A program made the position numbers and the translations under genes. The notes beneath the pieces were generated by a model. That model was not told the DNA's origin. It saw only the letters and a program-made list of their open reading frames with translations, and searched no databases. Below are positions 6,047 through 24,734 of a DNA stretch of 58,033 bases, in pieces (position 1 is the stretch's first letter; the number at the start of each line of letters is the position of its first letter). Origin of the DNA: Oscillospiraceae bacterium (GTDB taxonomy: Bacteria > Bacillota > Clostridia > Oscillospirales > Oscillospiraceae). Location: assembly GCA_017430985.1 (NCBI GenBank), contig JAFRLZ010000048.1:1-58033 (forward strand), written 5' to 3'.

Positions 6047-6134
6047 GCGCGAGTGGTGGAATTGGCAGACTCGCTAGATTCAGGTTCTAGTGCTCACTCC
6101 GGGCGTGCGGGTTCAAGTCCCGCCTCGCGCACCA
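6047..6134 (+). tRNA. tRNA-Leu, anticodon CAG; integration target of the downstream island
   Basis: Class II tRNA with acceptor stem GCGCGAG/CTCGCGC, anticodon stem CTAGA/TCTAG around loop TTCAGGT (anticodon CAG, reading CUG), an extra variable arm, T-loop GTTCAAGTC and an encoded CCA. Its final 23 bases (6112-6134) are repeated exactly at 24662-24684, marking it as the attachment site of a genomic island; the island end restores the full 3' end, so the tRNA should still work. Confidence 0.96.
6112..6134 (+). repeat. attL: left copy of the 23-bp tRNA-Leu direct repeat
   Basis: The T-arm and acceptor end of tRNA-Leu from TTCAAGTCCC to the CCA. Identical to 24662-24684; the flanking bases on both sides differ between copies. 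Confidence 0.9.
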
Positions 6135-6170
6135 AAACCCTGTGGTTTCAACGACCACAGGGTTTTTCTT
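6135..6170 (+). terminator. Terminator supplied by the island directly after tRNA-Leu
   Basis: Hairpin AAACCCTGTGGT / ACCACAGGGTTT with loop TTCAACG and a T5 tail, starting immediately after the tRNA CCA. It lies inside the island, so it replaces the terminator now displaced to 24689-24734. Confidence 0.88.
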
Positions 6171-6176
6171 TTGGAG

Positions 6177-6215
6177 TTGAGCGCTAGATTTTTACCCCCA
6201 TTTGAGCGCTAGATT
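6177..6215 (+). repeat. Two 14-bp direct repeats, candidate integrase arm sites
   Basis: TTGAGCGCTAGATT occurs at 6177-6190 and again at 6202-6215, a 25-bp period, between the attL core and the integrase ribosome site. This position is typical for arm-type recombinase sites or autoregulatory sites. No copy was seen at the right end. Confidence 0.5.
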
Positions 6216-6256
6216 ATTTCATAGACTGTTTTCGGCTCAAAAGGGAGGAAAAAACG

Positions 6257-7183
6257 ATGCGTAGAATGAAGATTATAAACGCCGAGGAAGTCAGGCGCAC
6301 GCCCTACACAGAGGCGGCAAATGCTTTTTTCAAACATTGTCGGGTCAAGAACTTACGCCCGCGCACCATCAACTACTACAAAGAGGATTTGACTTATTTC
6401 CACGGGAAAACGGGCATCAGGTATGTAGATGAAATCACACAGGAGGTCTTTGACGATTTCATTTTCAACGAGCTGGAAGCGGGCAAGAAAACAAGTTCCC
6501 TGAATACGCGGATTAGGGGGCTGCGGGTGTTCTTTTCATTCTGCGCCGAGCGGGAGTATATGAAGCCCATCCATCCTAAATTGATGAAAGTGGATAAGGA
6601 AATCAAGGAACCCTATACCGACGCGGAGCTGAAACGCCTCTTGAAAAAGCCGGAATCCAATAGATGGGCAGAGTGGAGGACTTGGGCGGCAATCAACTAT
6701 CTCATTTCTACTGGAAACAGGCTCAGCACGATAACAAACTTGAAGATTGAGGATATAAACTTTGAGGAAATGACGATACATCTGAAACAGGTGAAAAACC
6801 GCCATCAGCAGTTTGTCCCGCTCTCTCCCGCTCTGAAAGATGTGCTTTTAGATTATCTCAAAACTTGGGAATGGACGCGAAGCGATTATCTGTTCCCAAC
6901 TTATGAGGGGAAGAGCCTGAAAGTCCGTTCTTTCCAATGTGCCATAGAGCGATATAATAAGGGCAGGGGAGTATCAAAAACAAGCGTTCACCTGTTCCGG
7001 CACACCTTTGCCAAAAACTACATTTTAGCGGGCGGCGGGATGATTCAGCTTCAAGCCCTGCTCGGTCATTCCACGCTGGATATGACACGCCACTATGTCA
7101 ATCTCTACGGGACGGACCTACAAAAGAACTACGCCAGATTCAACCCGTTGGATAATCTAATGAAGCAAGTTGAAGCGAGTTAG
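6257..7183 (+). CDS. int: Tyrosine recombinase / site-specific integrase of the island
   Basis: 308 residues starting after GGGAGGAAAAAACG. An N-terminal SAM-like core-binding domain (about 15-105) is followed by the catalytic domain (about 115-295). The full active-site set is visible: Arg155 in STGNRLS, Lys180 in QVKNRHQ, His245 and Arg248 in HLFRHTFA, His271 in LLGHSTLD and nucleophile Tyr280 in RHYVNLY. It would catalyse recombination between the 23-bp tRNA repeats. Base composition is clearly more AT-rich than flanking genes, marking foreign origin. It reads away from the tRNA, the usual geometry. No excisionase was identified. Confidence 0.95.
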   Translation: MRRMKIINAEEVRRTPYTEAANAFFKHCRVKNLRPRTINYYKEDLTYFHGKTGIRYVDEITQEVFDDFIFNELEAGKKTSSLNTRIRGLRVFFSFCAEREYMKPIHPKLMKVDKEIKEPYTDAELKRLLKKPESNRWAEWRTWAAINYLISTGNRLSTITNLKIEDINFEEMTIHLKQVKNRHQQFVPLSPALKDVLLDYLKTWEWTRSDYLFPTYEGKSLKVRSFQCAIERYNKGRGVSKTSVHLFRHTFAKNYILAGGGMIQLQALLGHSTLDMTRHYVNLYGTDLQKNYARFNPLDNLMKQVEAS

Positions 7184-7221
7184 AACATCATCGAACATCT
7201 TTTAACATCTTTGGAACATCT
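7183..7221 (+). repeat. Four helically phased AACATC repeats at the integrase 3' end
   Basis: (G/T)AACATC begins at 7183, 7193, 7203 and 7214, so the copies are 10, 10 and 11 bases apart and lie on one face of the helix, starting at the integrase stop codon. It could be a recombinase or accessory-protein binding array, or part of an old junction. Confidence 0.5.
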
Positions 7222-7501
7222 TATTGCCAACATGAAGGACGGCGCCTGGTGCGGCTTCAAGTACTTTGCCTTTGACGGCAGCGAGAGCGAGATCACCGTT
7301 ACCGTGCGCGGCAGCGCGATGGGAATGCTGAAGGTCTATAACGAACGGGAACAAGCGCCTGTCGCCGAAATCCGCGTCACGGCGTCGCAGGACTACACGG
7401 CTTTTTCCTCCACGTTTTCCGTGTCCGCCGGCACGCAGCCTCTCTTCTTCGTCTTCGAGGGCTCCGGCGCGATGGATTTCGCTTGCTTTGAAATCGTATA
7501 A
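7211..7501 (+). pseudogene. 5'-truncated C-terminal (CBM6-like) fragment of a GH43-type enzyme
   Basis: An open frame of 96 residues with no ribosome site and only a TTG near the left end. From about residue 7 it reads like the last, beta-sandwich domain of a secreted-type or intracellular GH43 arabinosidase/xylosidase: MKDGAWCGFKYFAF, ITVTVRG, PVAEIRV, LFFVFEGSGAMDFACFEI. The catalytic five-blade propeller is missing; homology begins right after the AACATC repeats. I read it as the remnant left when the integrase module was joined to the sugar cluster. It is not a piece of the GH43 at 20865, whose C-terminus is different. Confidence 0.6.
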
Positions 7502-7532
7502 GACTAACGGAACACCTTTGCAGTCCTGACTC

Positions 7533-7561: not shown

Positions 7562-7596
7562 GATTTAAAATACTCGGAAAAAGCGAGGGCAAAACC

Positions 7597-9072
7597 ATGT
7601 TTTTCATCGGCGTCGATCTCGGTACCTCGGCGGTGAAGCTGCTGCTGGTGGATGAGCAGGGACGGATCGTGCGGTCCGTCACGAAAGAATATCCCATCTC
7701 CTTTCCGCACCCGGGCTGGTCGGAGCAGAACCCGGCGGATTGGTGGAAGGCGGTGCAGCATGGCATCCTCGAGCTGACCGAGCACATCGACAAGTGGGAA
7801 GTCCGCGGCATCGGCTGTGGCGGGCAGATGCACGGTCTCGTCGTACTGGACGAGCAAGACCGTGTGATCCGTCCGGCGATTCTTTGGAACGACGGACGCA
7901 CGGCGGAAGAGACAGAGTGGCTGAACACCGAGATCGGCAAGGACAGACTTTCCGCGCTGACGGCCAACATTGCCTTCGCAGGCTTTACCGCGCCGAAGCT
8001 GCTGTGGATGAAAAAGCACGAGCCCGAAAACTTCGCGCGCATCAAAAAGATCATGCTGCCGAAGGACTACATCAACTACCGCCTCACCGGCGTGCACGCC
8101 TGTGACTACTCCGACGCGAGCGGGATGCTGCTGTTGGATGTGAAAAACAAGTGCTGGTCGAAGGAAATGCTGGACATTTGCGGCCTGTCCGAGGCGCAGA
8201 TGCCGCGGCTCTTTGAGAGCTTTGAAGGCATCGGCACGATCCAGGGCTTCGTTTCCGGCGCGCTCGGACTGCCGCGCGACTGCAAGGTGGTCGCCGGCGC
8301 GGGGGACAACGCCGCCGCAGCGGTCGGAACCGGCGTCGTGGGAGAGGGCGGCTGCAATATTTCCCTCGGCACCAGCGGTACGATCTTCATTTCTTCCGAG
8401 CGTTTCGGCGTTGATCCCAACAACGCCCTGCACGCTTTTGCTCATGCCGACGGCAGATTTCACCTGATGGGCTGTATGCTCTCGGCGGCGAGCTGCAACA
8501 AATGGTTCTGCGACGAGATCCTGAGAACAAAGGACTATGCTGGAGAACAGGTTGACATAACTAAAGACGGCCTTGGCCGGAACCGCGTTTTCTTCCTGCC
8601 CTATCTGATGGGCGAGCGCAGCCCGATCAACGATACTGACGCCCGCGCCTGCTTTATCGGCATGAGTATGGATACGAGCCGCGCCGAACTGGTGCAGGCG
8701 GTGCTGGAGGGCGTGGCCTTCGCGACGCGCGACAGCTTCGAGGTGGCAAAAAGCCTTGGCCTGAACATCACGCACTCGATGCTCTGCGGCGGCGGGGCGA
8801 GGAGCCCGCTGTGGCGGACGATCCTCGCCAACGTCCTGAATATCCGCCTGGATATTCCGCAGACCGAGGAGGGTCCTGGTTACGGCGGCGCAATGCTCGC
8901 CATGGTCGGCTGCGGCGCATATGACAGCATAAAAGCCTGCGTGGACGCCTTGGTGCGCGTGACCGACAGCGTCGAGCCCGATCCCACGCTGGCCGCCAGA
9001 TACGAGGAACGTTACCAGAAATTCCGGAAACTTTATCCTGCCATGAAGAATCTGTTTCAGGAGGTCAAATAA
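7597..9072 (+). CDS. xylB: Xylulokinase (FGGY carbohydrate kinase)
   Basis: Phosphorylates D-xylulose to xylulose 5-phosphate for the pentose phosphate pathway. 491 residues, normal for XylB. FGGY features: phosphate-1 loop GVDLGTSAVK near the N-terminus, the XylB signature GGQMHGLVVLD at about 76-86, ILWNDGRTAEE, the ATP-domain NISLGTSGTIF, and LCGGGARSPLW near 400. QMHG specifically favours xylulose over glycerol or gluconate kinases. The isomerase-family gene begins 2 bases after its stop, so the two form an operon that can turn an imported sugar into a pentulose phosphate. Confidence 0.9.
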   Translation: MFFIGVDLGTSAVKLLLVDEQGRIVRSVTKEYPISFPHPGWSEQNPADWWKAVQHGILELTEHIDKWEVRGIGCGGQMHGLVVLDEQDRVIRPAILWNDGRTAEETEWLNTEIGKDRLSALTANIAFAGFTAPKLLWMKKHEPENFARIKKIMLPKDYINYRLTGVHACDYSDASGMLLLDVKNKCWSKEMLDICGLSEAQMPRLFESFEGIGTIQGFVSGALGLPRDCKVVAGAGDNAAAAVGTGVVGEGGCNISLGTSGTIFISSERFGVDPNNALHAFAHADGRFHLMGCMLSAASCNKWFCDEILRTKDYAGEQVDITKDGLGRNRVFFLPYLMGERSPINDTDARACFIGMSMDTSRAELVQAVLEGVAFATRDSFEVAKSLGLNITHSMLCGGGARSPLWRTILANVLNIRLDIPQTEEGPGYGGAMLAMVGCGAYDSIKACVDALVRVTDSVEPDPTLAARYEERYQKFRKLYPAMKNLFQEVK

Positions 9073-9073
9073 A

Positions 9074-10549
9074 ATGCAGAACATCCCGGAAGTGAAACTC
9101 GGCCTGATCGCCGTTTCCCGTGACTGCTTTCCAATCGCGCTTTCCGAGGCGCGCCGTGCCGCCATCGTAAAAACCTGCGGCGGCAACATCTACGAGTGCC
9201 CTGTTACCGCGGAAAATGAAAAAGACATGCTCAAGGCCGTTGAGGACGTCAAGGCCGCGGGCTGCAACGCTCTCGTCGTCTTCCTCGGTAACTTCGGTCC
9301 TGAGACGCCGGAGACGCTGATCGCCAAATACTTCGACGGTCCCTGCATGTTCGCGGCCGCCGCCGAGGGCGACGGCGATCTCATCAACGGCCGCGGCGAC
9401 GCCTACTGCGGCATGCTTAACTGCTCCTACAACCTCGGTATGCGTCACCTCAAGGGCTATATCCCCGAGTACCCTGTGGGCACGGCGGAAGAGATCGGCC
9501 AAAAGATCAAGGAGTTTTACCCCATCGCCCGCGCGATCATCGGCGTGAAAAACCTGAAGATCATCAGCTTCGGTCCGCGCCCGCAGGACTTCTTCGCCTG
9601 CAACGCGCCGATCAAGGGGCTGTACGAGCTGGGCGTGGAGATCGAAGAGAACAGCGAGCTCGATCTGCTGGTTTCCTACAGAGAGCACGCGAACGATCCG
9701 CGCATCCCCGCTGCCTGCTCTGACATGGCCGACGAGATGGGCGAAGGAAAATACTTCCCCGATCTGCTCGCGCGCATGGCGCAGTTTGAGCTGACCCTTC
9801 TGGATTGGGCGGAGGCGCACAAGGGCGCGCGCAAATACGTCGCTTTCGCGGACAAGTGCTGGCCGGCTTTCCCGGAGCAATTCGGCTTTGAGCCCTGCTT
9901 TGTCAACTCCCGGCTCGCTGCACGCGGCATCCCCGTGAGCTGCGAGGTGGATATCTACGGTGCGCTGAGCGAGTACATCGGCGCCTGCGTCTCGGGCGAC
10001 GCGGTGACCATTCTGGATATCAACAACAGCGTTCCCGCCTCCATGTGGGAAGAGCAGATCAAGGGCAAGTTCGACTATACGCTGACCGACACCTTTATGG
10101 GCTTCCACTGCGGCAACACCCCGAGCTGCAAGATGTGCGCGGACCGGGCGGTGAAGTATCAGCTCATCCAGCACCGCCTGCTGGAGCCGGCCGGCTCCGA
10201 GCCAGACTTCACGCGCGGCACCCTCGAGGGCGACATTGCCCCCGGCGAGATCACCTTCTTCCGCCTGCAGTGCGATTCGGACGGGAATCTCCGCTCCTAT
10301 ATCGCGGAGGGCGAGGTCCTGCCCGTGGCAACCACGAGCTTCGGCGGCATTGGCGTCTTCGCCATCAAGGAGATGGGCCGCTTCTACCGGCATGTGCTGA
10401 TCCAGAAGCGCTATCCCCACCACGGCGCGGTGGCCTTCGGCCATCACGGCAGGGCGCTGTTTGATGTCTTCAAATACTTAGGCGTGCAGGATATCGGCTG
10501 GAATCAGCCGAAGAACCTACCCTATTCGACGGAGAATCCCTGGGCGTAA
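9074..10549 (+). CDS. L-fucose/L-arabinose isomerase-family protein, partner of XylB
   Basis: A 491-residue cytosolic aldose-ketose isomerase of the FucI/AraA superfamily. The N-terminal Rossmann-like domains hold NALVVFLGNFGPETPE; the C-terminal half holds the expected metal-site neighbourhood: CEVDIYGALSEY, ILDINN, MGFHCGNTPSC and HHGAVAFGHHG, supplying Glu, Asp and His ligands. True FucI is about 590 residues, so this is a shorter relative whose substrate is unknown. Co-transcription with xylulokinase suggests it makes a ketose XylB can use, possibly D-xylulose or L-xylulose. Closest published function cannot be given without a search. Confidence 0.75.
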   Translation: MQNIPEVKLGLIAVSRDCFPIALSEARRAAIVKTCGGNIYECPVTAENEKDMLKAVEDVKAAGCNALVVFLGNFGPETPETLIAKYFDGPCMFAAAAEGDGDLINGRGDAYCGMLNCSYNLGMRHLKGYIPEYPVGTAEEIGQKIKEFYPIARAIIGVKNLKIISFGPRPQDFFACNAPIKGLYELGVEIEENSELDLLVSYREHANDPRIPAACSDMADEMGEGKYFPDLLARMAQFELTLLDWAEAHKGARKYVAFADKCWPAFPEQFGFEPCFVNSRLAARGIPVSCEVDIYGALSEYIGACVSGDAVTILDINNSVPASMWEEQIKGKFDYTLTDTFMGFHCGNTPSCKMCADRAVKYQLIQHRLLEPAGSEPDFTRGTLEGDIAPGEITFFRLQCDSDGNLRSYIAEGEVLPVATTSFGGIGVFAIKEMGRFYRHVLIQKRYPHHGAVAFGHHGRALFDVFKYLGVQDIGWNQPKNLPYSTENPWA

Positions 10550-10703: not shown

Positions 10704-12059
10704 ATGGACGGCAAAAGCGCGAAAAACGAACGCCTGTTCCGTGAGGCGCCGGTATGGAAGTCGATTGCTTCGCTTGCCATCCCCTCGCTGCTCTCGATCC
10801 TGGTCATGATCTTCTACAATCTGGCCGACACCTTTTTCATCGCCCAGCTCGGCGACACGGCGAAAGTGGCCGCCGTATCCATCGTCAGCCCCGTCTTTTC
10901 CATCATCATGGCGCTGGGGACCATGCTGGGCGTCGGAGCCGGCACGGTGATCTCCGTCGCTTTCGGCGCGGGAGACGCGGAGAAAGCGAAAAATACGGCG
11001 AGCCTCTGCTTCTACGCCGGCATCGCGCTCAGCGCGCTCATCAGCGTTCTGCTGCTTGCTTTCTCCGCGCCGCTGCTGCGTTTCCTCGGCACGCAGCCGG
11101 AGATGTGGGACGACGCGGCGACCTATCTGCGCGTCCTTGCGCCGGGCACGGTCTTCATGATCAGCTCCACCACGGTTTCCGCCTTGATCCGCGCCGAGGG
11201 CGGCGTAAGAGAAGGCCTGCGCGGCTATCTCGCGGGGACGGTCACGAACATCGTGCTCGATCCGCTGTTCATCCTCGTGTTCCGCTGGGGCGTGGCCGGA
11301 GCGGCCGTCGCCACGGTGCTGGGCAACCTCGTCTCCGTCCTGATCTATCTCGCCTACATCCGCCGCCATGCGACGGTGGTCTCGCTCGATCCGAAGCGCG
11401 CGCTCGCGGACGCGGCCGTTCTGGGCAGCGTCATCGCGCTGGGGGTGCCGAACGCGGTCAGCACCCTGCTCAGCGGCTTTGCCTCCACCTTTTCCAATCA
11501 GCTTCTGTCCACACACGGCACCGACGCCATCGCCGCCATGGCTGCGGCCGGGAAATCCAGCATGCTGATTTCCATGGTCCAGATGGGCATCTGCATGGGC
11601 GTGCAGCCGCTGCTGGCCTATAATTTCGGCGCGAAAAACATCGAACGCCTGAAGGAGACGCTGCGCAAGACCGCTCTGCTGACGGTGCTGGTGGGCCTTG
11701 CCTCCGCCGCACTGTGCTTCATCTTCCGCCGCTGGGTCATTGGTCTGTTTTTGAAGGAAGCGCAGGTCGCGCAGACGGGCGAGAGCCTGATCCTCTGGCT
11801 GATCGCCGGCGCGCCATTCCTCGGTTTCGTGTACTTGAGCACCAACTATCTGCAGGCCACAAAGAAGGCGAGCGCGGCGATCCTTGTGTCGCTGCTGCGG
11901 CAGGGCCTGCTGCTGATCCCGCTGCTGTATCTGTTCCACCGGCTGCTCGGCCTGACGGGCATCGCGGCCGCGCATCTGGCGACGGACATCGGCGCGGCGG
12001 CGCTGGCCACGCTGATCTTTTTCGTTCACTATCGCCGCATGAGGAGGGAGCTTGCATGA
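10704..12059 (+). CDS. MATE-family multidrug efflux transporter
   Basis: 451 residues with about 12 predicted helices in two homologous halves, the MATE layout; it would export organic cations or drugs using a Na+ or H+ gradient. Typical segments are IPSLLSILVMIFYNLADTFF in helix 1 and GAGTVISVAFGAGDAEKAKN after helix 2, mirrored in the second half by MGICMGVQPLLAYNFGAKN. The start has AAAGGAGGGAAAGC upstream. The TetR gene begins inside its stop codon (ATGA), so pump and regulator are made together, suggesting the regulator senses a pump substrate. Role within the island may be export of released plant aglycones; that is inference. Confidence 0.9.
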   Translation: MDGKSAKNERLFREAPVWKSIASLAIPSLLSILVMIFYNLADTFFIAQLGDTAKVAAVSIVSPVFSIIMALGTMLGVGAGTVISVAFGAGDAEKAKNTASLCFYAGIALSALISVLLLAFSAPLLRFLGTQPEMWDDAATYLRVLAPGTVFMISSTTVSALIRAEGGVREGLRGYLAGTVTNIVLDPLFILVFRWGVAGAAVATVLGNLVSVLIYLAYIRRHATVVSLDPKRALADAAVLGSVIALGVPNAVSTLLSGFASTFSNQLLSTHGTDAIAAMAAAGKSSMLISMVQMGICMGVQPLLAYNFGAKNIERLKETLRKTALLTVLVGLASAALCFIFRRWVIGLFLKEAQVAQTGESLILWLIAGAPFLGFVYLSTNYLQATKKASAAILVSLLRQGLLLIPLLYLFHRLLGLTGIAAAHLATDIGAAALATLIFFVHYRRMRRELA

Positions 12060-12651: not shown

Positions 12652-13911
12652 TTATCGGGAGATGTCCAAGGCGGTTTTCTTTTTCTTTCGATATTGCGCC
12701 GGCGTGTAGCCCGCGGTCTCCCGGAAGCTCTGGATGAAGTAGTTGACCGTGTTGAAGGCGAGGCGTTCGGCGATCTCGCGCACGCTCATGTCGGTGGATT
12801 CCAGCAGCACCTTGGCGCGTTCGACCTTGGCGAAGCGGATGTACGTGCTGACCGGGATGCCGGTCTCTTTTTTGAACTTCTCCGTCAGATAGTATTCCGT
12901 GTAGCCCACCAGCGCGGCGAGATCGGCTACGCGGATCTTTCGGTCGAGGCTCAGCTCGATGTAATCGCAGCACTTCTGGATCGCGTGCGAATAGCCGGGG
13001 TTTGACCGCAGATGATGCACGCGGTAAATGAAATCGTGATACATGGCTGTGGCCAGCGCCGCCAACTCGCCGGAGTCGCGGCAGTCCTCCACCGATTGCA
13101 GATACGAGTCGCCCAGCGCGTAAGCGGTCTCGGGAGAGAGACCGCCTTCCATGGCCGCGCGGCTGACCAGCGTCGTGAAGACGACGATGCTGGTCTTCAT
13201 CTGCCGCAGAGGATCGGCGCCCTGCACCGGAACGCCGGGGCTGAGGTTGACGCTGCGCTGGATGACGGCGTGATAGTTGATGTCGCCGTTGCGTACCATC
13301 TGCAGCAGCGCGCGTTCGGCCAGCCAGACCTTTTCGCGGTCCCGCGCGCCCGCGGTCGAGGCCTGGATCTCCGCGCCCACAGATACGGAGCCCAGCGCCT
13401 CTGGGCCGAGCTGATCGCCGGTGAGCGTATTGTGCACCATCACGACGTAGCGGGAGAAAATGGCGTAGGGGATCACCGGCAGACGCGGCAGCGAAGCGAT
13501 CAGCTCGCTTCCCCAGCGCGCTCCATCGAGCGTGTCGGTAAAGGTACGCAGCGAGGCGCGCAGCTGCCGCTCCGACGGCGCGGCGTAGAAGACCGGGCCG
13601 ACCACAAAGAGCAGGCTGCGCTTACGCTCCGTCTCAAATGTCACGGCCCACTGCATCCCAATCGGCGAGCCGAGCAGGAAGGGCGCCTTCTGCTCCGCAT
13701 TTTTTGCCATTTCCTTTGCCTTTTCCTTTGCGCCGAGGATAGAGAAGGAGCGGGAAAGGAGCGCCTCGTCCTCCTTCGGGCAGGAGGAGGCGATCAGCTC
13801 GCCGGCGTCGTCGAAGCACCAAACGTACAGTTTTTCGCTGCCGGAAATGACAGATTCCAGCAAAAGCAGATTTTGTTCTCCCTGCGTCATGCGCTGTTCC
13901 ATCCGCGTCAC
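12652..13911 (-). CDS. AraC-family regulator of the glycoside cluster
   Basis: 419 residues. The C-terminal ~105 residues form the double helix-turn-helix of AraC proteins: KIRVADLAALVGYTEYYLTE, then MSVREIAERLAFNTVNYFIQ and the closing FRETAGYTPAQYRK. The N-terminal ~300 residues are a sensor with no recognised cupin; residues 15-150 (LYVWCFDDAGELIAS, AVTFETERKRSLLFVVGPVF) resemble a PAS/GAF-like small-molecule pocket. It is transcribed divergently from the GPH transporter gene over a 165-base region, the standard place for a pathway activator. Confidence 0.88.
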   Translation of the reverse strand: MTRMEQRMTQGEQNLLLLESVISGSEKLYVWCFDDAGELIASSCPKEDEALLSRSFSILGAKEKAKEMAKNAEQKAPFLLGSPIGMQWAVTFETERKRSLLFVVGPVFYAAPSERQLRASLRTFTDTLDGARWGSELIASLPRLPVIPYAIFSRYVVMVHNTLTGDQLGPEALGSVSVGAEIQASTAGARDREKVWLAERALLQMVRNGDINYHAVIQRSVNLSPGVPVQGADPLRQMKTSIVVFTTLVSRAAMEGGLSPETAYALGDSYLQSVEDCRDSGELAALATAMYHDFIYRVHHLRSNPGYSHAIQKCCDYIELSLDRKIRVADLAALVGYTEYYLTEKFKKETGIPVSTYIRFAKVERAKVLLESTDMSVREIAERLAFNTVNYFIQSFRETAGYTPAQYRKKKKTALDISR

Positions 13912-14076: not shown

Positions 14077-15597
14077 ATGGCTAAGGAAAAAATCACCCAA
14101 AGCGAGATCGACGGCGTTCAGTACCGCCGTGCAAAACTGTGGCAGATCATCCTCATCGCCTTCAACGCTCTCAATGGCATGGCCGTCTATATCCTGATCG
14201 GCCAGGCTTCCTACGCGGCCAGCATCGGCTTCGGCATCTCCACGCTGCTCGTCGGCGGTCTGCTGACATTCACCCGTATCTTCGACGCCGTCACAGACCC
14301 GCTGCTCGCCTTCCTCTATGACCGTGTCAACACCCGCTGGGGAAAGGTCCGCCCCCTGATGCTGCTCGGCTGGGCGATCCAGTCCCTGGGTATTATGGCC
14401 ATGTTCTCCTGGACGGCCAGCAAGGGCTTCGGTGTGGGCATGTTCCTCATCACCTACATGGTCTATGTCATCGGCTACACCATCGTGAACATGACGGCGC
14501 AGACCCTGCCCGCTCTGCTCACCAACGACCCGAAGCAGCGCCCGACCGTCGGCGTGTGGCAGACCGTGTTCAATTACATCGTTCCCATGGCCTTCACCAT
14601 CGTGCTCAACACTGTGCTGCTTCCCCGGCACGGCGGTGAGTACAATCAGGCCTATTTGACCGCCGCGGCCACCGTGACCGTTCTCGTCGCCCTTGTCGGC
14701 GTGCTGCTGGTCTGCGTGGGCGTCTCCGCCTACGATAAGCCGGAGTTTTTCAAAGGCACGAACAAGACCGAGGAGCGGCTGAAGTTCAGAGACATGTGGG
14801 CCGTCCTCTCCAAGAACAAGCCCCTGCAGGCCTACATCATCTCCGCCTCCTCCGACAAGATCGCCCAGCAGGCGGGCTCCGCCGCCATCGTCGGCACCAT
14901 GCTCTCCGGCATTCTGATCGGCAACATGACGATCGCGACCTATCTCTCCGTCGGCGGCATGCTGCCTTCGATCATCTTCGCCATCATCGGCGCGAAGTAC
15001 TGCGGGCGGCACGGCAACAAGGAGGCCATCGTCAACTGGGCCAAATACTGCATCTATGCAAACCTCGTCATGATTGCCTTCTTCGCGGTTACCTGGTTCA
15101 CCGTCGGCACGCATTCCATCGCGCACCTCGGCGTCACGATGATCCTCTATATCCTGCTGACGCTGGTCTGCAACGGCTTCATGATGGCCGGCACTACTGC
15201 CAACACAGCCTTCATGGCGGATATCATCGACTATGAGCTCGACCGCAGCGGCAAGTATATCCCGGCGGTCGTCTCCGGCACCTACAGCCTTGTTGACAAG
15301 ATCGTCTCCTCCTTCTCCGCGCTGATCGCCACCGCCTGCGTGGCGCTGATCGGCTACACGACCACGATGCCTCAGCCCAGCGACAGCCCCACCGGCGGCA
15401 TTTTCTGGGTGACCATGTTCCTGCGCTACGGGCTCGCCATCCTCGGCTGGCTCTGCACACTGTGGGCCATGCGCAAGTGCCGTCTCGGCAAGGCCGAGAT
15501 GGTCGAGGTGCAGAAGCGCATCGAGGACAAGAAGGCCGAGGCCAAGGCCGAGCTGATCGAAAAGGAGCTCCACAAGGGAGATCCCGTCGATGCGTAA
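14077..15597 (+). CDS. GPH-family (MFS_2) glycoside:cation symporter
   Basis: 506 residues, about 12 helices, cytoplasmic charged C-terminus. The GPH/MelB-type hallmark is the loop after helix 2: FTRIFDAVTDPLLAFLYDRV, followed by NTRWGKVRPLML. It should import glycosides or sugars with Na+ or H+. It opens the operon GPH-GH2-TIM barrel-GH78-GH43-GH1, in which each gene overlaps or nearly touches the next; none of the enzymes has a signal peptide, so this is the route by which their substrates enter. The RBS is ACAGGAGAAATCATC. Confidence 0.9.
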   Translation: MAKEKITQSEIDGVQYRRAKLWQIILIAFNALNGMAVYILIGQASYAASIGFGISTLLVGGLLTFTRIFDAVTDPLLAFLYDRVNTRWGKVRPLMLLGWAIQSLGIMAMFSWTASKGFGVGMFLITYMVYVIGYTIVNMTAQTLPALLTNDPKQRPTVGVWQTVFNYIVPMAFTIVLNTVLLPRHGGEYNQAYLTAAATVTVLVALVGVLLVCVGVSAYDKPEFFKGTNKTEERLKFRDMWAVLSKNKPLQAYIISASSDKIAQQAGSAAIVGTMLSGILIGNMTIATYLSVGGMLPSIIFAIIGAKYCGRHGNKEAIVNWAKYCIYANLVMIAFFAVTWFTVGTHSIAHLGVTMILYILLTLVCNGFMMAGTTANTAFMADIIDYELDRSGKYIPAVVSGTYSLVDKIVSSFSALIATACVALIGYTTTMPQPSDSPTGGIFWVTMFLRYGLAILGWLCTLWAMRKCRLGKAEMVEVQKRIEDKKAEAKAELIEKELHKGDPVDA

Positions 15598-17776: not shown

Positions 17777-18618
17777 AAACTTACGTTCAACAGATCATGC
17801 TGGGCTCCGTGACCTCGAACGAGGCGCAGGCCCGCGAGACCTTACAGAAAATCAAGGCCGCCGGATACGACGGCCTTGAGCTCAATTCCTTTATGATCCA
17901 CCCCACCGGGCTGCTGGTGCGCATGCTGACGAAAGCGGCCGGAATGCCCACCGGCAAGGGCGGAAAGCTCGACTGGAACGCGCTGCTCCGTGACACGGAT
18001 CTGGGCGTCGTGAGCCTCCATACCGACCTCGGCTCATTGGAAAGAGACGCGGCCGCCGTCGCGGCGGAAGCGAAGAGCTTTGAGACAGACAGGGTCGTGA
18101 TCACGGGCATGTACCGCTTCGACTATGGTGACGAAAAAGCCGTGCGCGAGCTGGCGCAGCGCCTGAACAAAGCCGGCGAGACGCTGAAAGCCGAGGGCGC
18201 GGAGCTCCTGTACCACAACCACAACATCGAACTGCTGCCGCTCGGGAACGGAAAACGCGCCTATGACCTGCTGATCGAGGAAACGGATACGAATTATGTA
18301 AACTTCGAGTTCGACAGCTACTGGTTCACCGACGGGGGAGCGGACGCGAAGGACTGGATGAAAAAGCTCGGCAGCCGTATGATGCTCTGGCACGTCACCG
18401 ACCGCGGCAGCCGCCAGAAGGGCGCGGCCATGACGCCGATCTTGAAATGCGACAGCATGGAGCTCGGCACCGGGAACATAGATCTCGACGGTCTGCTTTC
18501 CCTGGCCCGCGAAAACGGCGTGGAGAACGTCATTCTGGAGAGCCATAAGAACTGGACTGACAAAGACCCGGTCAAAAGCCTGGAAACGAGCGCCCTCTGG
18601 CTGAATGCGAGGAAATGA
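17773..18618 (+). CDS. Sugar phosphate isomerase/epimerase, xylose-isomerase-like TIM barrel
   Basis: 281 residues of the AP_endonuc_2/xylose isomerase-like fold. The metal-site pattern of the family is present: YHNHNIEL (about 140-147), NFEFDSYWFTDGG, MLWHVTDRG and ILESHKNW, supplying His and Glu ligands. Such proteins isomerise or epimerise sugars and inositols, and some act on 3-keto-glycosides. The ATG overlaps the GH2 stop (ATGA), so synthesis is coupled with GH2. Substrate is unknown. No Gfo/Idh/MocA oxidoreductase, the common partner for keto-sugar chemistry, is present in the cluster. Confidence 0.82.
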   Translation: MKTYVQQIMLGSVTSNEAQARETLQKIKAAGYDGLELNSFMIHPTGLLVRMLTKAAGMPTGKGGKLDWNALLRDTDLGVVSLHTDLGSLERDAAAVAAEAKSFETDRVVITGMYRFDYGDEKAVRELAQRLNKAGETLKAEGAELLYHNHNIELLPLGNGKRAYDLLIEETDTNYVNFEFDSYWFTDGGADAKDWMKKLGSRMMLWHVTDRGSRQKGAAMTPILKCDSMELGTGNIDLDGLLSLARENGVENVILESHKNWTDKDPVKSLETSALWLNARK

Positions 18619-18619
18619 T

Positions 18620-20881
18620 ATGAGTATGCTTTTGGAAAACCGCCTGCCCGCGCGCTGGGCGGCCAAATGGATCGACCCGGAGCTCCCGCACGACAAAGAG
18701 CAGCGGCAGCCCGCCTCCGTGCTGCGCCGCCGCTTTACGGTGGACAAAACCGAAAACGCCGTGCTGTACATCACCTGCCACGGCCTGTATGAGGCTGTGC
18801 TGAACGGGCAGCGCGTCGGCGATTTCGTGCTGGCACCCGGAACGGGAGACTACGCCAAACGCCTGTGCGTGCAGGCCTACGACGTGTCCGATCTGCTCTG
18901 CGAGGGCGAAAACGAGCTGCTCGTCACCCTGGGCGACGGCTGGTACCGGGGCAGCGTGGGCGTGGACGGCCTGTGCAACTATTACGGGGAAGATGTCGCT
19001 CTGCTCTGTCAGCTGGAGATCGACGGCGAAGCCGTCCTCTGCAGCGATGAGCGCTGGGAGGCGAGCCAGAGCGGCCCGACGCGTGAAAACGATCTCCAGC
19101 AGGGTGAGGCATACGACGCCCGCCGGGAGACGATTGCCGAATGGCACTTTGTCACCGTGCGGGACTACAGATACGAAAAGCTCTGCGGCGAGTCCTTCGT
19201 GCCGATCACTGAGCACGAGCGCTTTGAAGGCAAGCTCCTTACCACGCCGAACGGCGAGACCGTGATCGACTTCGGGCAGAACCTCGCGGGCTATACGGAG
19301 ATCCGCCTCAACGCAAAGGCCGGGCAGCGGATCACGCTCTGGCACGGCGAGACGCTGGACGAACAGGGAAACTTCACGCAGAAAAACTTCGACCCGGGCG
19401 AGCGCAACAAAAACGGCATCCCGCAGAAGATGGAATACATCTGCAAAGACGGAGAAAACGTCTGGAAGCCGCGCTTCACGATCTTCGGCTTCCGCTATGC
19501 GAAGCTTGAGACCGACGCAGATCTCACGGACGCGCGCTTCACCGCGATCGCCGTCTATTCCGACATGGCGCAGACCGGCTTTTTCGAGTGCGGGAACGCC
19601 GACGTGAACCGGCTCTTTGAAAACAGCCTCTGGTCGATGCGCTCGAACTTCTGCGATGTCCCCACCGACTGCCCCACCCGCGAGCGCGCGGGCTGGACGG
19701 GCGACGCGGGCGTCTTCGCACCCACGGGCCTGATGCTGATGGACTGCGCCCCTGTCCTGCGCAAGTGGCTGGGCGAGTGCCGCTTGGCCCAGCGTGAGGA
19801 CGGTCTGGTCGAGAACATCGCCCCGGTGAACAATACCGGCTCGATGATCTCCAACATGCTGCAGGGCTCCGCCGGTTGGGGCGACGCCTGCGTACTGGTG
19901 CCCTGGGCCGTTTACGAGGCCACGGGCGACCGGACGATCCTTGAAGAGAACTATGAGATGATGCGCCGCTGGCTGGCCTTCTGCGGAAAGAGAGCCTCGA
20001 AGACGCGGCCGCACAATCTCCTGAACCCCTACAAGAAATATCTGGTGGACGAGGGCTTCCACTTCGGCGAGTGGTGCCAGCCCGGCGTGGACAACATGGA
20101 CGTGATGAAAAAGACCATGATGTTCGGCGCGCCGGAAGTGGCCACGGCTTATTATTTCAAATCCGCCTCGCTGCTCTCCGAGATTGCCGCGATCCTCGGC
20201 AAACAGGAGGACGTGAAGAAGTACAGGGAGATCGCGGAGGGAGCGAAAAAGGCCTACCGCCATTGCTGCACCAAAAACGGCGCAATCAAGTCCGACCGCC
20301 AGTGCGAGTACGTGCGCCCGATCGCTTTCGGGCTGCTGGACGGCGAGGAGGCGCAGACCGCGGCCGACGCGCTGAACGAACTGGTCGTGAAGAACGGCTG
20401 TCACCTGAACACCGGCTTCCTCTCCACGCCCGAGCTCTGCCGCGTGCTTTCGGAGCACGGGCACACGGACACGGCCTACAGGCTGCTGCTGCAGACCGAG
20501 TGCCCGGGCTGGCTCTACGCGGTCAGGCACGGCGCGACCACGATCTGGGAGACCTGGGACGGCGTGCGGCCCGACGGCACGGTGCATGACTCGCTCAACC
20601 ACTATTCCTACGGCGCGATCAGCGGCTGGCTGCTCGACGGCGTCTGCGGGATCCGGCTTCACGCCGGGAAGCTGACGGTGAAACCGCAGCCGCACCCCTC
20701 GCTGGGCTTTGCGGAAGGGGAGTGGCGCAGTCCCGTCGGCACGATCCGCAGCGCCTGGCGCTATGAAAACAACAGGCTGGTCTTCGAGATCTCCGTGCCC
20801 GTCCCGGCTATCATCGAGCTGCCGAACGGAGAGACGCATGAAGTGAACGCGGGGGAACATCGCTATGAAGTACTTTTGTAA
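18620..20881 (+). CDS. GH78 alpha-L-rhamnosidase
   Basis: 753 residues from ATG 18620, chosen because GCGAGGAAATGAT precedes it; an in-frame ATG at 18605 lies inside that ribosome site. Layout: N-terminal beta-sandwich carbohydrate domains (about 30-310, with GDGWYRGSVG), then the (alpha/alpha)6 barrel. The catalytic signature DCPTRERAGWTGD (350-362) carries general acid Glu355, and TIWETWDGVRPDG carries the partner Glu. No signal peptide: it acts inside the cell on imported rhamnosides, releasing L-rhamnose. No rhamnose isomerase or kinase gene is in the island. It overlaps the GH43 gene by 17 bases. Confidence 0.92.
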   Translation: MSMLLENRLPARWAAKWIDPELPHDKEQRQPASVLRRRFTVDKTENAVLYITCHGLYEAVLNGQRVGDFVLAPGTGDYAKRLCVQAYDVSDLLCEGENELLVTLGDGWYRGSVGVDGLCNYYGEDVALLCQLEIDGEAVLCSDERWEASQSGPTRENDLQQGEAYDARRETIAEWHFVTVRDYRYEKLCGESFVPITEHERFEGKLLTTPNGETVIDFGQNLAGYTEIRLNAKAGQRITLWHGETLDEQGNFTQKNFDPGERNKNGIPQKMEYICKDGENVWKPRFTIFGFRYAKLETDADLTDARFTAIAVYSDMAQTGFFECGNADVNRLFENSLWSMRSNFCDVPTDCPTRERAGWTGDAGVFAPTGLMLMDCAPVLRKWLGECRLAQREDGLVENIAPVNNTGSMISNMLQGSAGWGDACVLVPWAVYEATGDRTILEENYEMMRRWLAFCGKRASKTRPHNLLNPYKKYLVDEGFHFGEWCQPGVDNMDVMKKTMMFGAPEVATAYYFKSASLLSEIAAILGKQEDVKKYREIAEGAKKAYRHCCTKNGAIKSDRQCEYVRPIAFGLLDGEEAQTAADALNELVVKNGCHLNTGFLSTPELCRVLSEHGHTDTAYRLLLQTECPGWLYAVRHGATTIWETWDGVRPDGTVHDSLNHYSYGAISGWLLDGVCGIRLHAGKLTVKPQPHPSLGFAEGEWRSPVGTIRSAWRYENNRLVFEISVPVPAIIELPNGETHEVNAGEHRYEVLL

Positions 20882-22655
20882 TCCCGTCAACGTCAACTAC
20901 CGCTACCAGTTCAATCAGGATCCGCGCAAGGGCGGCGCGCTGCAGATCTGCCGCGAGGCGGCCGACCCCTCGATGATCCTCTTTAAGGGACGCTACTATA
21001 TCTTCGCGTCCATGACGCTGGGCGTCTGGGTCTCGGACGACCTCGTGAACTGGGAAAACCGCCGGCTGCCGGAGGGCTTGCCCTTCTACGATTACGCGCC
21101 GGATGTGCGCGTGATCGGAGACTATGTGTATTTCTGCGCCTCCGCGCGGGAGCACAACTGCGACCGCTGGCGCACGAAGGATATCCTGAACGGTCCCTAT
21201 GAAAAGCTCGAGGGCAGCTTCCCGTTCTGGGATCCGAACCTGTTCCTCGACGACGACGGGCGCGTGTATTTCTATTGGGGCTGCTCCAACGAGACGCCGA
21301 TCTGGGGCGTCGAGCTCGATTCCGAAACCATGCTGCCCAAGGGCGAAAAGATCGCCGTTGTCGAAGGCCATCCCTACGAGATCGGCTACGAGCGCATCGG
21401 CGAGGACAACAGCACGCTGCCGGCCTCCGCGGATGTGATCGAAGCTAAGTATCAGGCCTTTGTGAAGGCGCAGGGCGTTCCGGAGGAATACATCCCCGCC
21501 GACGTGCGCCCCCTGATCCGCGGCATGTTCTCGGACAAACCCTATATCGAGGGTGCGTGGATGGACAAGCACGAGGGGAAGTACTATCTCCAGTACGCCG
21601 CCCCCGGCACGCAGTACAACACCTATTCCGACGGCGTCTATGTGGGCGAGAGCCCGCTCGGGCCCTTCCGGCTCGCGGAGAACAACCCCTATTCCTACAA
21701 GCCCGGCGGCTTCCTGCCCGGGGCGGGCCACGGCTCAACCATGCGGGATCGGGAGGGGAACTGGTGGCACACCGCCACGATGCGCATTTCCAAAAACCAT
21801 GATTTCGAGCGCCGCGTAGGTCTTTGGCCCGCGGGCTTCGATGAAGACGGCGAGCTCTTCTGCAACCAGCGCTACGGCGACTGGCCGATGGCGCTCGAGG
21901 GCGAGCCCTGGCGCGGCCCGGCCTGGATGCTGCTGAGCGTCGGCAAGGCGGCTTCCGCCTCCTCCTGCGTCCCCGGCCATGAGCCGGACAAAGCCACAGA
22001 GGAGAACGTGCAGACCTGGTGGCGCGCGGCGTCGAACAGCCGGGATGAGTGGCTGTGCGTCGACCTCGGAAAGCGCTTCGACGTGCACGCCGTACAGGTG
22101 AACTTCGCCGACGATATAATCGACGTGCCCTGCCCCGGCGAGATCCACCCCGGCTCGCAGGCACGCTACATTGACGAGGACGAGCATGTCACCCGGTGGA
22201 AGCTGGAGGGCAGTCTCGACGGCGAGAACTGGTTTGTCGTTGAGGACAAGTCCGAGGCCGGGACCAACCTTTCGCATGATCTCATCGTACGCGAAGAGGG
22301 CTTTGCCGTCCGGTATCTGCGCCTCAGCGGCATGGCCGTTCCATTTGAGCAGGCACCCTGCATTTCCGGCCTGCGCGTCTTCGGTCTGGGCGACGGAGAA
22401 AAGCCCGCCGGGCCGGTCTTCACCGCAACGCGTATGGGCGACCTGGACATGGTCGTACAAATCAAAGAGCAGCCGGACGCCCTGGGCTATAACATCCTCT
22501 TCGGTTCGTCGCCGGAGAAACTGTACCACAGCTATATGGTCTTCGAGGCCGGTTCCCGGCGCGTCGGTGCGCTGGTCAGGGGCCGGGAGGTTTACGTCCG
22601 CGTGGACGCCTTCAACGAGAACGGCATCACGGCAGGCAAGTGCGTGATACTGTAA
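20865..22655 (+). CDS. GH43 glycoside hydrolase with F5/8-type carbohydrate-binding domain
   Basis: 596 residues, no signal peptide. The five-bladed propeller (about 25-330) has the three GH43 acidic residues: Asp34 in EAADPSMI (base), Asp123 in FWDPNLFL and Glu229 in YIEGAWM (acid). Residues about 355-505 form an F5/8 type C (CBM32-like) sandwich (WWRAASNSRDEWLCVDLGK, RYLRLSG), and the last ~80 look like a fibronectin-III-like module. Probably an exo-acting arabinofuranosidase, xylosidase or galactosidase on imported oligosaccharides. The start has GGGGGAACATCGCT upstream inside the GH78 gene. Confidence 0.88.
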   Translation: MKYFCNPVNVNYRYQFNQDPRKGGALQICREAADPSMILFKGRYYIFASMTLGVWVSDDLVNWENRRLPEGLPFYDYAPDVRVIGDYVYFCASAREHNCDRWRTKDILNGPYEKLEGSFPFWDPNLFLDDDGRVYFYWGCSNETPIWGVELDSETMLPKGEKIAVVEGHPYEIGYERIGEDNSTLPASADVIEAKYQAFVKAQGVPEEYIPADVRPLIRGMFSDKPYIEGAWMDKHEGKYYLQYAAPGTQYNTYSDGVYVGESPLGPFRLAENNPYSYKPGGFLPGAGHGSTMRDREGNWWHTATMRISKNHDFERRVGLWPAGFDEDGELFCNQRYGDWPMALEGEPWRGPAWMLLSVGKAASASSCVPGHEPDKATEENVQTWWRAASNSRDEWLCVDLGKRFDVHAVQVNFADDIIDVPCPGEIHPGSQARYIDEDEHVTRWKLEGSLDGENWFVVEDKSEAGTNLSHDLIVREEGFAVRYLRLSGMAVPFEQAPCISGLRVFGLGDGEKPAGPVFTATRMGDLDMVVQIKEQPDALGYNILFGSSPEKLYHSYMVFEAGSRRVGALVRGREVYVRVDAFNENGITAGKCVIL

Positions 22656-22667
22656 GGAGGATATAAC

Positions 22668-23963
22668 ATGGCATTTCCAAAGGGATTTATGATCGGCGCG
22701 GCGACCGCCGCCCATCAGGTCGAGGGCAACAACATCCACAGTGATTACTGGATCCAGGAGCATCTGCCGCACACGAGCTTCACCGAGCCCAGCGGCGCGG
22801 CCTGCGACCACTATAACCGCTATGAAGAGGATATCAAGCTGCTGGCCGGGGCCGGACTGAACGCCTACCGTTTTTCGATCGAGTGGGCCCGCATAGAACC
22901 GAAAGAAGGAGAATTCGACGAGCGCGAGATCGAGCACTACCGCGACGTGATCCATTGCTGCAAGGCAAACGGCGTGGAGCCCATCGTGACGCTGCTGCAC
23001 TTTACCAGCCCCGCGTGGCTGATCCGCAAGGGCGGCTGGGAAGCGGAAAGCACCGTCGAGTACTTCCGCCGCTACGCCGCCTATGTGACCGAAAAGCTCG
23101 GCGCAGAGCTGAACTATATCTGCACGATCAACGAGGCCAACATGGGCCTGCAGCTGGCGGCCATTTCCAAGCGCTTCCGGCTCATGGCCGAGCAGGCCGC
23201 AAAGGCCGCGGCCTCGGGCGCGAAGAAGGCCGAGGGCACCGTACAGGTCGGCATGAATTTTGAGAAGATGATGGAGAACATGAAGTTCGCCGCCATGGAG
23301 AACGCGCAGGCCTTCGGCACGCCCCAGCCGCAGGTGTTTGTCTCCTCCCGCACACCGGAGGGCGACGCGCTGGTCTTCCGCGCGCACCGGACGGCGAAGG
23401 CGGCCATCAAGGCGCTGTATCCCAACATCAAGGTCGGTATCACGCTCTCGATGCATGATCTGCAGGCGCTGCCCGGAGGGGAGCGCTTCGCCGAGGCTGC
23501 CTGGGACGAGGAATTCCGGCACTACCTGCCGTTCATTCAGGACGATGATTTCCTCGGCGTGCAGAACTACACCCGTACGCAGTACGGACCCGCCGGACAG
23601 CTGCCCTGCCCGGAGGGTGCGGAGCTGACGCAGATGGACTACGAGTTCTATCCCGAGGCGCTCGAGCATGTGCTCCGCCGCGTACACGAGGATTTCAAGG
23701 GCGATCTGATCGTCACGGAAAACGGCGTGGCCGTCTCGGACGACAGCCGCCGCGTCGAGTTCATTCGACGCGCGCTGCAGGGCGTGGAAAACTGTGTCAG
23801 CGACGGCATCCTGGTGAAGGGCTACATGTACTGGAGCCTGATGGACAATTTTGAGTGGCAGAAGGGCTTTTCGATGACCTTCGGCCTCATCGCTGTTGAC
23901 CGCGCGACGCAAAAGCGTACACCCAAGGAAAGCCTTGCCTTCCTCGGCAGCTATACGGAATAA
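22668..23963 (+). CDS. GH1 beta-glycosidase (beta-glucosidase type)
   Basis: 431 residues, cytosolic, normal GH1 size. The N-terminal FPKGFMIGAATAAHQVEG motif, acid/base Glu156 in TINEAN, and nucleophile Glu351 in IVTENGVAVSDD are intact, as is the YWSLMDNFEWQKGF aglycone-side motif. The usual NEP is NEA here, a common variant. The His/Arg/Ser residues that bind a 6-phosphate group are not obvious, so it is more likely a beta-glucosidase than a 6-phospho-enzyme. Last gene of the glycoside operon, preceded by AAGGAGGATATAAC and followed by a terminator. Confidence 0.9.
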   Translation: MAFPKGFMIGAATAAHQVEGNNIHSDYWIQEHLPHTSFTEPSGAACDHYNRYEEDIKLLAGAGLNAYRFSIEWARIEPKEGEFDEREIEHYRDVIHCCKANGVEPIVTLLHFTSPAWLIRKGGWEAESTVEYFRRYAAYVTEKLGAELNYICTINEANMGLQLAAISKRFRLMAEQAAKAAASGAKKAEGTVQVGMNFEKMMENMKFAAMENAQAFGTPQPQVFVSSRTPEGDALVFRAHRTAKAAIKALYPNIKVGITLSMHDLQALPGGERFAEAAWDEEFRHYLPFIQDDDFLGVQNYTRTQYGPAGQLPCPEGAELTQMDYEFYPEALEHVLRRVHEDFKGDLIVTENGVAVSDDSRRVEFIRRALQGVENCVSDGILVKGYMYWSLMDNFEWQKGFSMTFGLIAVDRATQKRTPKESLAFLGSYTE

Positions 23964-24006
23964 GCAGATAGCATATGCCCGCCAAAGCAAACAGCTTACA
24001 CATATA

Positions 24007-24059
24007 AAAGTCTCCCGCCCGTCGGCCCTGTTTGAACCGGTGAGCGGGAGAGCCTTTTT
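24007..24059 (+). terminator. Terminator of the glycoside operon
   Basis: Stem AAAAGTCTCCCGC / GCGGGAGAGCCTTTT with imperfect upper part and a T5 run; also lies 3' of tnpV on the other strand, so it may act both ways. Confidence 0.75.
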
Positions 24060-24100
24060 GCAGGCTCCTCTTGGAAGTCACCTTTCCAAAGGAGCTTGGC

Positions 24101-24520
24101 TTATGGTACAATACAGTTACATGAAACTTTGGTATCTTCGGTCTCCTCGGGGTAGATCAGCTCGCGCATCACGATCTCCTCGGCGCGGCTGCGGATGCTG
24201 TTCATGCGGCGTACCCATTCCATCTGATCGGCAGCCTTGAGAGCTTCAGTCACGTTCTCTTGCTTTTTCATCTGTCGGATGATACACTCAAGACGGTCCT
24301 CGCAGGCACGGTCGATCTCGGAGAGGTGCTCAAAGAGCCCTCCGACCATAAGCAGATTTGTGTACAGCACCGGCCGATGCTCGTTCAAATAGCGTTTGCG
24401 CATCCGGCCATACTTGCCGAGTAGATTCTGCTCGGCCTCTTCGATCGTGAGATCGGGCAGGAAATAATCGCCGACCTGCGTGTATGTCCCGCCGAGTTCT
24501 TCGTATGTTGATTTACCCAT
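24101..24520 (-). CDS. tnpV: TnpV-family element protein
   Basis: 139 residues from ATG 24520, which has GGAGGAAAAAC upstream; the frame stays open further left but that part has no family resemblance. The sequence follows the TnpV pattern I know from clostridial transposons and integrative elements: STYEELGGTYTQVGDYFLPD, then a helical domain with GKYGRMRKRYL, YTNLLMVGG, VTEALKAADQMEWVRRMN and AEEIVMRELIY. Biochemical role is not established. Its place 142 bases inside the right repeat supports its being part of the mobile module. Confidence 0.88.
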   Translation of the reverse strand: MGKSTYEELGGTYTQVGDYFLPDLTIEEAEQNLLGKYGRMRKRYLNEHRPVLYTNLLMVGGLFEHLSEIDRACEDRLECIIRQMKKQENVTEALKAADQMEWVRRMNSIRSRAEEIVMRELIYPEETEDTKVSCNCIVP

Positions 24521-24661
24521 GTTTTTCCTCCTTGGTTTTGACCCTTTACAGGATGAGATGTATTGGAAACATGGGTTGATACAGGTACAGGAAAACACTG
24601 AAATTTGATAAAATAATGCGGTTTTGAGTTGAAAAAGTACTATTAGACGTTGCCCGAGGAA

Positions 24662-24684
24662 TTCAAGTCCCGCCTCGCGCACCA
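24662..24684 (+). repeat. attR: right copy of the 23-bp tRNA-Leu repeat
   Basis: Exact copy of 6112-6134 ending in the tRNA CCA. The bases before it (CGAGGAA) do not continue the tRNA, so this is a bare attachment remnant. Confidence 0.9.
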
Positions 24685-24688
24685 TAAT

Positions 24689-24734
24689 AGTTCCGGAAAC
24701 AACTCGCAGCGAGTTGTTTCCGGAACTTTTTTTC
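24689..24734 (+). terminator. Probable original terminator of tRNA-Leu, displaced by the island
   Basis: Perfect 16-bp stem TTCCGGAAACAACTCG-cag-complement followed by CTTTTTTT, starting 5 bases after the right tRNA repeat. In the empty site it would directly follow the tRNA. Confidence 0.88.

Follow-up and report, generated by a model that had tools for sequence, protein, structure and literature searches.

Does the DNA between a tRNA-Leu gene and a second copy of that gene's 3' end form a mobile genomic island, and did the sugar-use genes within it arrive in a single step? The question is raised by a 58,033-nt stretch of an Oscillospiraceae bacterium genome (the whole stretch is referred to here as the window), in which positions 6135-24684 constitute the segment under study. 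An initial annotation had proposed that the whole segment moves as one unit, with a tyrosine integrase inside its left end and TnpV inside its right end, and delivers a glycoside-use package in one step. The segment is probably an integrative island at tRNA-Leu(cag) with a patchwork body. At the level of sequence comparison, its status as an island is shown by the second copy of the tRNA 3' end, by integrase relatives that adjoin this tRNA in two genera, by a displaced terminator, and by empty sites, while one-step delivery of the package appears only partly supported.

The genus comparison set comprised 102 genomes, including the source genome G000 (genomes are denoted by G numbers, followed where needed by a contig), and a wider comparison for the integrase covered 394 genomes drawn from the order. 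Cargo families were assigned from Pfam and NCBIfam scans of the island genes, and the genome counts given for the isomerase and GH78 are tallies of the matches listed.

The tRNA Gene, Its Repeated 3' End, and the Empty Site

The tRNA-Leu(cag) gene is the single tRNA found by ARAGORN in the whole window. Its 23-bp 3' end recurs exactly, as the initial annotation had stated, in two attachment (att) cores that start 18,550 bp apart and face the same direction (Table 1). The segment is thus bounded by an intact tRNA on one side and, on the other, by a displaced, like-oriented piece of the tRNA 3' end, and it contains a tyrosine integrase near one end; this is the arrangement that characterizes tRNA-targeted islands. 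Occurrence of the repeat at many unrelated places would have counted against an island; with up to three mismatches allowed, the 23-mer was found at exactly two places in the 1.81 Mb assembly, and a reversed control at none. A chance repeat without biological meaning, for which only the shortness of the repeat speaks, is therefore rejected as having a negligible probability: about 1e-4 pairs of any 23-mer, and about 4e-9 for this particular word, are expected in the window, and the repeat is a tRNA 3' end with an integrase inside and a terminator that is displaced relative to related genomes.

The displacement is evident from the sequence that follows each copy. In G002, G099, G096, G095, and G032, which were read directly, a hairpin of the type AGTTCCGAAAA...TTTTCGGAACTTTTTC stands immediately after the tRNA, whereas in the window this hairpin follows the second att copy instead; the intervening DNA was therefore inserted between the tRNA and its terminator. 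The same hairpin also follows displaced tRNA tails in G089, G123, G005, and G062, as well as shorter tails in G124, G006:C26, and G082. Among 41 inspected tRNA-Leu(cag) loci, 4 were absent or too short, and 36 of the remaining 37 have a terminator-like hairpin directly after the tRNA, with the usual type present in 6 of these 37; the remaining types may come from elements or be particular to certain clades.

When the tRNA of the window was joined to the sequence after the second copy and used as a query, it matched as one piece in 6 of the 102 genus genomes, spanning 1-135 of its 145 bases in G099, G096, G002, and G095 and 1-103 in G032 and G006. Since these six genomes join the tRNA directly to the terminator now located right of attR, an empty site exists. 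The predicted empty site is thus recovered at the tRNA-terminator junction, but downstream of the tRNA only the initial ~15-47 bp match. The genes past the terminator differ among the ten genomes compared, except for the sharing pairs G062/G005 and G095/G123. In a gene-level empty site, the flavodoxin gene would stand directly after the tRNA; no such arrangement appeared among the matches listed for 101 genomes, where an att copy running into the flavodoxin gene likewise occurs in the window only. The locus of G032 was considered as a case of the operon beside flavodoxin without an island and was rejected, as the flavodoxin gene there apparently closes a small operon of its own.

Several side observations concern the same locus. 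In L272 (G006:C26), three copies of the tRNA tail lie within 330 bp (5081-5409), each followed by its own terminator-like hairpin, and these are possible remnants of nested or emptied inserts. On the flavodoxin side of attR, positions 24735-24790 of the window are perhaps a second rearrangement junction. Upstream, the gap between FtsW and tRNA-Leu is ~0.1 kb in the window (5939-6047) versus ~0.9 kb in G025, G035, G005, G030, G021, and G026, relatives in which a single contig holds both genes, a difference that is either a loss in the source lineage or a gain in the others.

The Integrase, Its Left Arm, and a Proposed Mechanism

The integrase is complete, as initially annotated, and its gene starts 122 bp past the tRNA. 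Its closest relative within the genus, in G023, shares 81% identity over residues 1-168 and also lies behind tRNA-Leu(cag), in a contig that ends inside the gene. A partial integrase in G077 (64% over residues 3-190) follows a copy of the 23-bp core with other DNA in front of it, and in the other genomes of the 101 the relatives reach at most 40% identity among the matches listed. Besides G000, three of the 394 order genomes reach an E value of 1e-60. The best of these, G450, belongs to another genus of the same family and carries an integrase with 71% identity over residues 1-306 (one in-frame stop reported), again behind tRNA-Leu(cag), with the next tail, of a 61-bp type, 7.7 kb further on. 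The other two, G356 and G315, show 42-43% identity, and their fetched stretches contain no tRNA and a tRNA-Pro, respectively.

The left arm contains perfect 14-bp direct repeats of TTGAGCGCTAGATT spaced 25 bp apart. TAGATT pairs exactly 25 bp apart occur in four of the five left arms associated with this integrase or its remnant (window, G077, G123:C32, and G450), and no such pair arose when the window arm was put through 20,000 mononucleotide shuffles; as the motif was spotted by inspection, its significance is post hoc.

Taken together, these features allow a mechanism to be proposed. The integrase may bind the paired TAGATT arm sites, and recombination would take place within the shared tRNA 3' block, after which the element's own terminator would end the tRNA transcript; TnpV at the right end may serve as an accessory or excision factor. 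The element ends enclose sugar genes of the kind typical of the genus (AraC, GPH, GH2, TIM barrel, GH78, GH43, GH1, kinase, isomerase, and MatE), with a ragged join to the integrase. No relaxase or conjugation families were found in the Pfam scans of the island genes, and neither was a large serine recombinase (TnpX), the tyrosine integrase being the only recombinase detected. Given this lack of mobilisation genes, the segment is at most a non-autonomous, excisable island: it would at best excise as a circle, and leaving the cell would need the help of another element.

As a separate observation, an open frame resembling a tyrosine recombinase (E 6e-18) occupies 292-750 of L097 (G082:C92); it lies where the contig ends and adjoins the operon on its MatE/GH1 side.

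One Unit or a Patchwork

The initial annotation went further and treated integrase, sugar package, and TnpV as one unit. The insertion at the tRNA 3' end by an integrase is supported by comparison, but one-step delivery is unsupported as stated: the cargo genes are carried elsewhere in relatives, the integrase adjoins a truncated gene, and transfer genes were not found. That these components arrived together and still move together as an intact mobile unit is doubtful; the probability of this view overlaps with that of the preferred reading, which likewise assumes an integrase-made island. In its favor, the integrase is open over its full length, the att cores are identical, other inserts at tRNA-Leu(cag) bring sugar packages, and in G123:C32 the operon likewise adjoins a left end of the window's kind. 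In that contig, however, the junction differs: an att tail and a window-type left arm lead through about 20 integrase codons straight into UxaC, a PfkB kinase, SDR, and UxuA, beyond which MatE, GH1, GH43, GH78, and the TIM-barrel protein follow in the orientation opposite to that of the window. G012 has part of a TnpV gene at the edge of a contig, ~0.4 kb away from the operon on the regulator side. The arrangements in G123:C32 and G012 imply at least two encounters of the operon with this kind of element, each with a different join.

The junction with the integrase bears on the same issue. The truncated GH43-CBM6 gene that abuts the integrase has its best relatives, at 55%, in open reading frames (ORFs) of ~500 aa. 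Genes of this type in G031, G016, and G095 adjoin TnpV and a GH2 gene, which favors an intact unit, but the truncation itself argues against one. The guanine-cytosine (GC) content in 500-base windows is 47-53% over the integrase versus 55-67% in the cargo, the latter like the flanks; the contrast counts in favor of the preferred reading, and the host-like composition of the cargo speaks against joint arrival, as do the wide, single-copy distribution of the isomerase and operon alleles that match different relatives. For the symporter, identity reaches 85-87% with G106 and G072 versus 69-75% elsewhere, and the TIM-barrel protein is 83-84% identical to those of G012, G088, G106, G120, and G123 versus 71-78% elsewhere.

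A further alternative is that resident sugar genes were enclosed by the ends of two different elements through a deletion or inversion, so that the two att copies do not derive from one element. This capture is likewise doubtful, and its probability overlaps with that of the patchwork part of the preferred reading. It gains from the clustering of kinase, isomerase, and operon away from tRNA-Leu in relatives, including G072, where they occur in the order of the window on a contig other than that of its tRNA-Leu, and from the resemblance of the right end mostly to that of G062 and of the left end to those of G023, G107, and G123:C32. The usual tRNA terminator immediately right of attR, however, would hardly be expected from a random join.

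A number of findings weigh against the island reading itself or against its cargo being mobile. Isomerase orthologues of at least 80% identity and near full length are present in 53 of 101 other genomes, fragments at that level are present in a further 10, and G000 contains no second copy above 31% in its 81% complete assembly, which is odd for mobile cargo. GH78 orthologues of at least 71% occur in 27 of 100 other genomes (G092, with pieces only, was left out); 20 places, in 20 of these 27 genomes and many cut by contig ends, were fetched, and among them an att copy was seen only in G123:C32 and TnpV only in G012. The operon order is conserved at these places as far as the contigs reach, while the neighbors differ. 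None of the other genomes searched showed the island in its entirety, G023 being uninformative as its contig ends inside the integrase. The right junction also shows signs of rearrangement: the flavodoxin gene is alone in the window, whereas 15 of the 22 loci inspected in relatives have it behind one or both of two genes that we take to encode a monooxygenase and a decarboxylase-cupin protein. At the left end, the TAGATT spacing in G023 is 12 bp, and the left end of G107 shares 33 bp with the window yet has no TAGATT. Tail length does not sort by integrase, as the tail in G450 is of the 61-bp type. Finally, the source assembly is a draft of 93 contigs, 80.9% complete and with 2.3% contamination.

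The state of this draft, together with the breaking of contigs of several relatives at tRNA-Leu(cag), raises the possibility that an assembly or binning artefact joined unrelated DNA at the tRNA repeat. Such an artefact is improbable, as the words used in assembly are usually longer than 23 bp, the adjacency of left arm and operon recurs in G123:C32, and both island ends have relatives elsewhere. With an integrase-made island retained as the preferred reading, the sugar genes are most likely cargo of elements at a hotspot that was later rearranged.

A Shared Insertion Site in the Genus

Seven further inserts in the genus each have the tRNA and a tail on a single contig, with sizes of 8-39 kb (G005, 22; G033, 29; G061, 11; G068, 23; G089, 39; G107, 8; and G123, 30 kb). 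Additionally, G032 has a tail 2.3 kb past a tRNA that keeps its usual terminator. The elements of G005, G033, G089, and G123 share the tRNA target with the island; they differ from it in carrying another integrase, which adjoins the tRNA in reverse orientation (described as Tn916-like by our own reading, not by a tool label), and a 61-bp rather than a 23-bp tRNA tail. A TnpV gene lies near the right end in G033, G089, and G123, as in the island, and sugar cargo is a further common feature of G033 and G089.

The cargo of these last two inserts was scanned, the two having been picked since their ORFs looked sugar-related. The G033 insert encodes an MFS_2 symporter, AraC, GH2, AraA, an FGGY kinase, and a class II aldolase, AraD-like by our own reading, and unlike the island it also carries Mob_Pre and DUF5906 proteins. 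The G089 insert encodes GH78, GH43, GH3, fucose-isomerase-C, FGGY, and aldolase proteins, among others. Sugar packages are thus present in at least three of the eight inserts at tRNA-Leu(cag), the window included.

Tentatively, tRNA-Leu(cag) could be a shared dock at which species of the genus exchange sugar-use operons, and if so, the range of usable plant sugars would be partly determined at one locus. This suggestion, put forward with considerable reservation, draws on unlike integrases at one tRNA, set distances between TnpV and attR, element-borne terminators, and swapped sugar packages. The pattern of differing inserts at one tRNA is more interesting than the single island. The locus provides a concrete, testable integration hotspot in a genus with ~100 sequenced species, where the traffic of sugar genes can be traced at one locus.

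TnpV at the Right End

The initial placement of TnpV inside the right end is borne out (Table 1). The longer ORF containing it crosses the att copy, and the start codon of TnpV was placed by reading at 142 bp from attR. Of 26 tails examined, 13 have a TnpV gene no more than 400 bp away, and this gene always points away from the tail; this is not an unbiased rate, since many of the 26 loci were chosen because TnpV and att matches stood close, although the constancy of the spacing is less affected. The aligned TnpV start lies 142 bp (window), 155 bp (six cases), or 157 bp from tails of 23 bp and 303-367 bp (five cases) from tails of 61 bp. The AlphaFold model of the window TnpV has a mean predicted local distance difference test (pLDDT) score of 84. 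Sequence and fold searches with TnpV returned nothing significant; as the model matched no PDB entry at an E value of 0.001 or better, no Xis-like fold was recognized. The recurrent adjacency of TnpV and attR offers a handle on the role of a common, unexplained mobile-element protein.

Cargo Genes and Other Features of the Window

The features of the island are listed in Table 1. The GPH transporter, GH2, GH78, GH43, GH1, and xylulokinase of the initial list are all present, but the pumps mentioned there amount to one family, MatE. Beyond that list, the segment encodes a fucose-isomerase-C protein, an AraC regulator, an AP-endonuclease-2-type TIM barrel, and the truncated GH43-CBM6. Plus-strand ORFs at 12613 and 13012 were considered as operon genes and rejected, as relatives carry stops there; the real gene is the minus-strand AraC regulator.

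Table 1. Positions in the window of the island's boundaries, recombination genes, and cargo
Feature	Position	Strand	Basis or remark
tRNA-Leu (cag), integration target	6047..6134	+	ARAGORN
attL core, 23-bp tRNA 3' end	6112..6134	+	Exact repeat search
Element-borne terminator, possibly now ending the tRNA transcript	6135..6172	+	Hairpin plus T run
Left arm, candidate integrase arm sites	6177..6215	+	Perfect 14-bp direct repeats at 6177 and 6202
Tyrosine integrase, 308 aa	6257..7183	+	PF00589, E 7e-28; XerA/C/D models below cut-off
GH43-CBM6 3' fragment, junction scar	7211..7501	+	Pfam, relatives; ~93 of ~490 codons left
Xylulokinase (FGGY)	7597..9072	+	NCBIfam XylB 573 bits, cut-off 380
Isomerase, L-fucose isomerase C-terminal family	9074..10549	+	Pfam
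MatE family protein	10704..12059	+	Pfam
AraC family regulator	12652..13911	-	Pfam; divergent from glycoside operon
GPH-type sugar symporter (MFS_2)	14077..15597	+	Pfam, NCBIfam
GH2	15590..17776	+	Best NCBIfam model beta-glucuronidase LacZ4, below its cut-off
Xylose-isomerase-like TIM barrel (AP_endonuc_2)	17773..18618	+	Pfam
GH78, alpha-L-rhamnosidase family	18605..20881	+	Pfam
GH43 with F5/8 type C domain	20865..22655	+	Pfam
GH1	22668..23963	+	Pfam
TnpV gene, reads inward	24101..24520	-	PF14198, E 2e-46 (match on longer ORF 24101-24685)
attR core, second 23-bp copy	24662..24684	+	Exact repeat search
Displaced usual tRNA terminator	24689..24735	+	Same hairpin type directly after tRNA in six relatives

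A regulator, a transporter, and several glycoside hydrolases are kept as a cluster in relatives, as is characteristic of glycoside-utilisation clusters. The cargo probably serves the import and breakdown of plant oligosaccharides bearing rhamnose and glucuronate, a guess based on GPH import, GH78, the beta-glucuronidase-like GH2, GH43, and GH1, together with the glucuronate genes nearby in G123. Rhamnosyl-glucuronyl oligosaccharides occur as side chains of arabinogalactan, and the gene content suggests plant oligosaccharides of this kind as a possible substrate.

Elsewhere in the window, genes for a CHASE2-guanylate cyclase, a FecR-domain protein, and a GAF-HD protein lie in a row at 35816-42268, and within the FecR-domain protein gene, stretches of at least 23 bases recur exactly near 38.2-38.9 kb. 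The region at 29.0-31.6 kb has no Pfam match on either strand; its relatives adjoin the UPRTase gene in G099, G031, G109, and G122, in an orientation opposite to that of the UPRTase gene's place in the window, and an inversion involving 29-31 kb is possible.

Comparison with Known Systems

A literature search for sugar islands at tRNA genes turned up nothing fitting among the results listed; tRNA-targeted islands as such are already known, and the present island is new in detail. Among systems with related components, the sugar-use genes of the Ruminococcus gnavus nan cluster also lie near tnpV, and their acquisition by horizontal transfer was suspected by the authors; that cluster is associated with a DDE-type transposase/integrase instead of a tyrosine integrase, and the available part of the account mentions no tRNA site (PMC12323340). 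The mobilisable elements Tn4451 and Tn6104 share the tnpV gene with the present island, and the TnpV of Tn4451 was postulated, from its likeness to lambda Xis, to act in excision; as far as the accessible portion of that report describes them, these elements employ a large serine recombinase and a mob gene, in contrast to the tyrosine integrase, the tRNA target, and the lack of a mob gene found here (PMC3158075). A further parallel is provided by the Islander catalogue of genomic islands in tRNA genes, which, in the excerpt available, describes a tyrosine integrase at one end, an intact tRNA on one side, and a displaced 3' fragment on the other (PMC4383910). These traits are shared by the present island, which differs from the islands of that excerpt in that its cargo is a mosaic of genus-type sugar genes and its two ends are marked by an element-borne and a displaced terminator.

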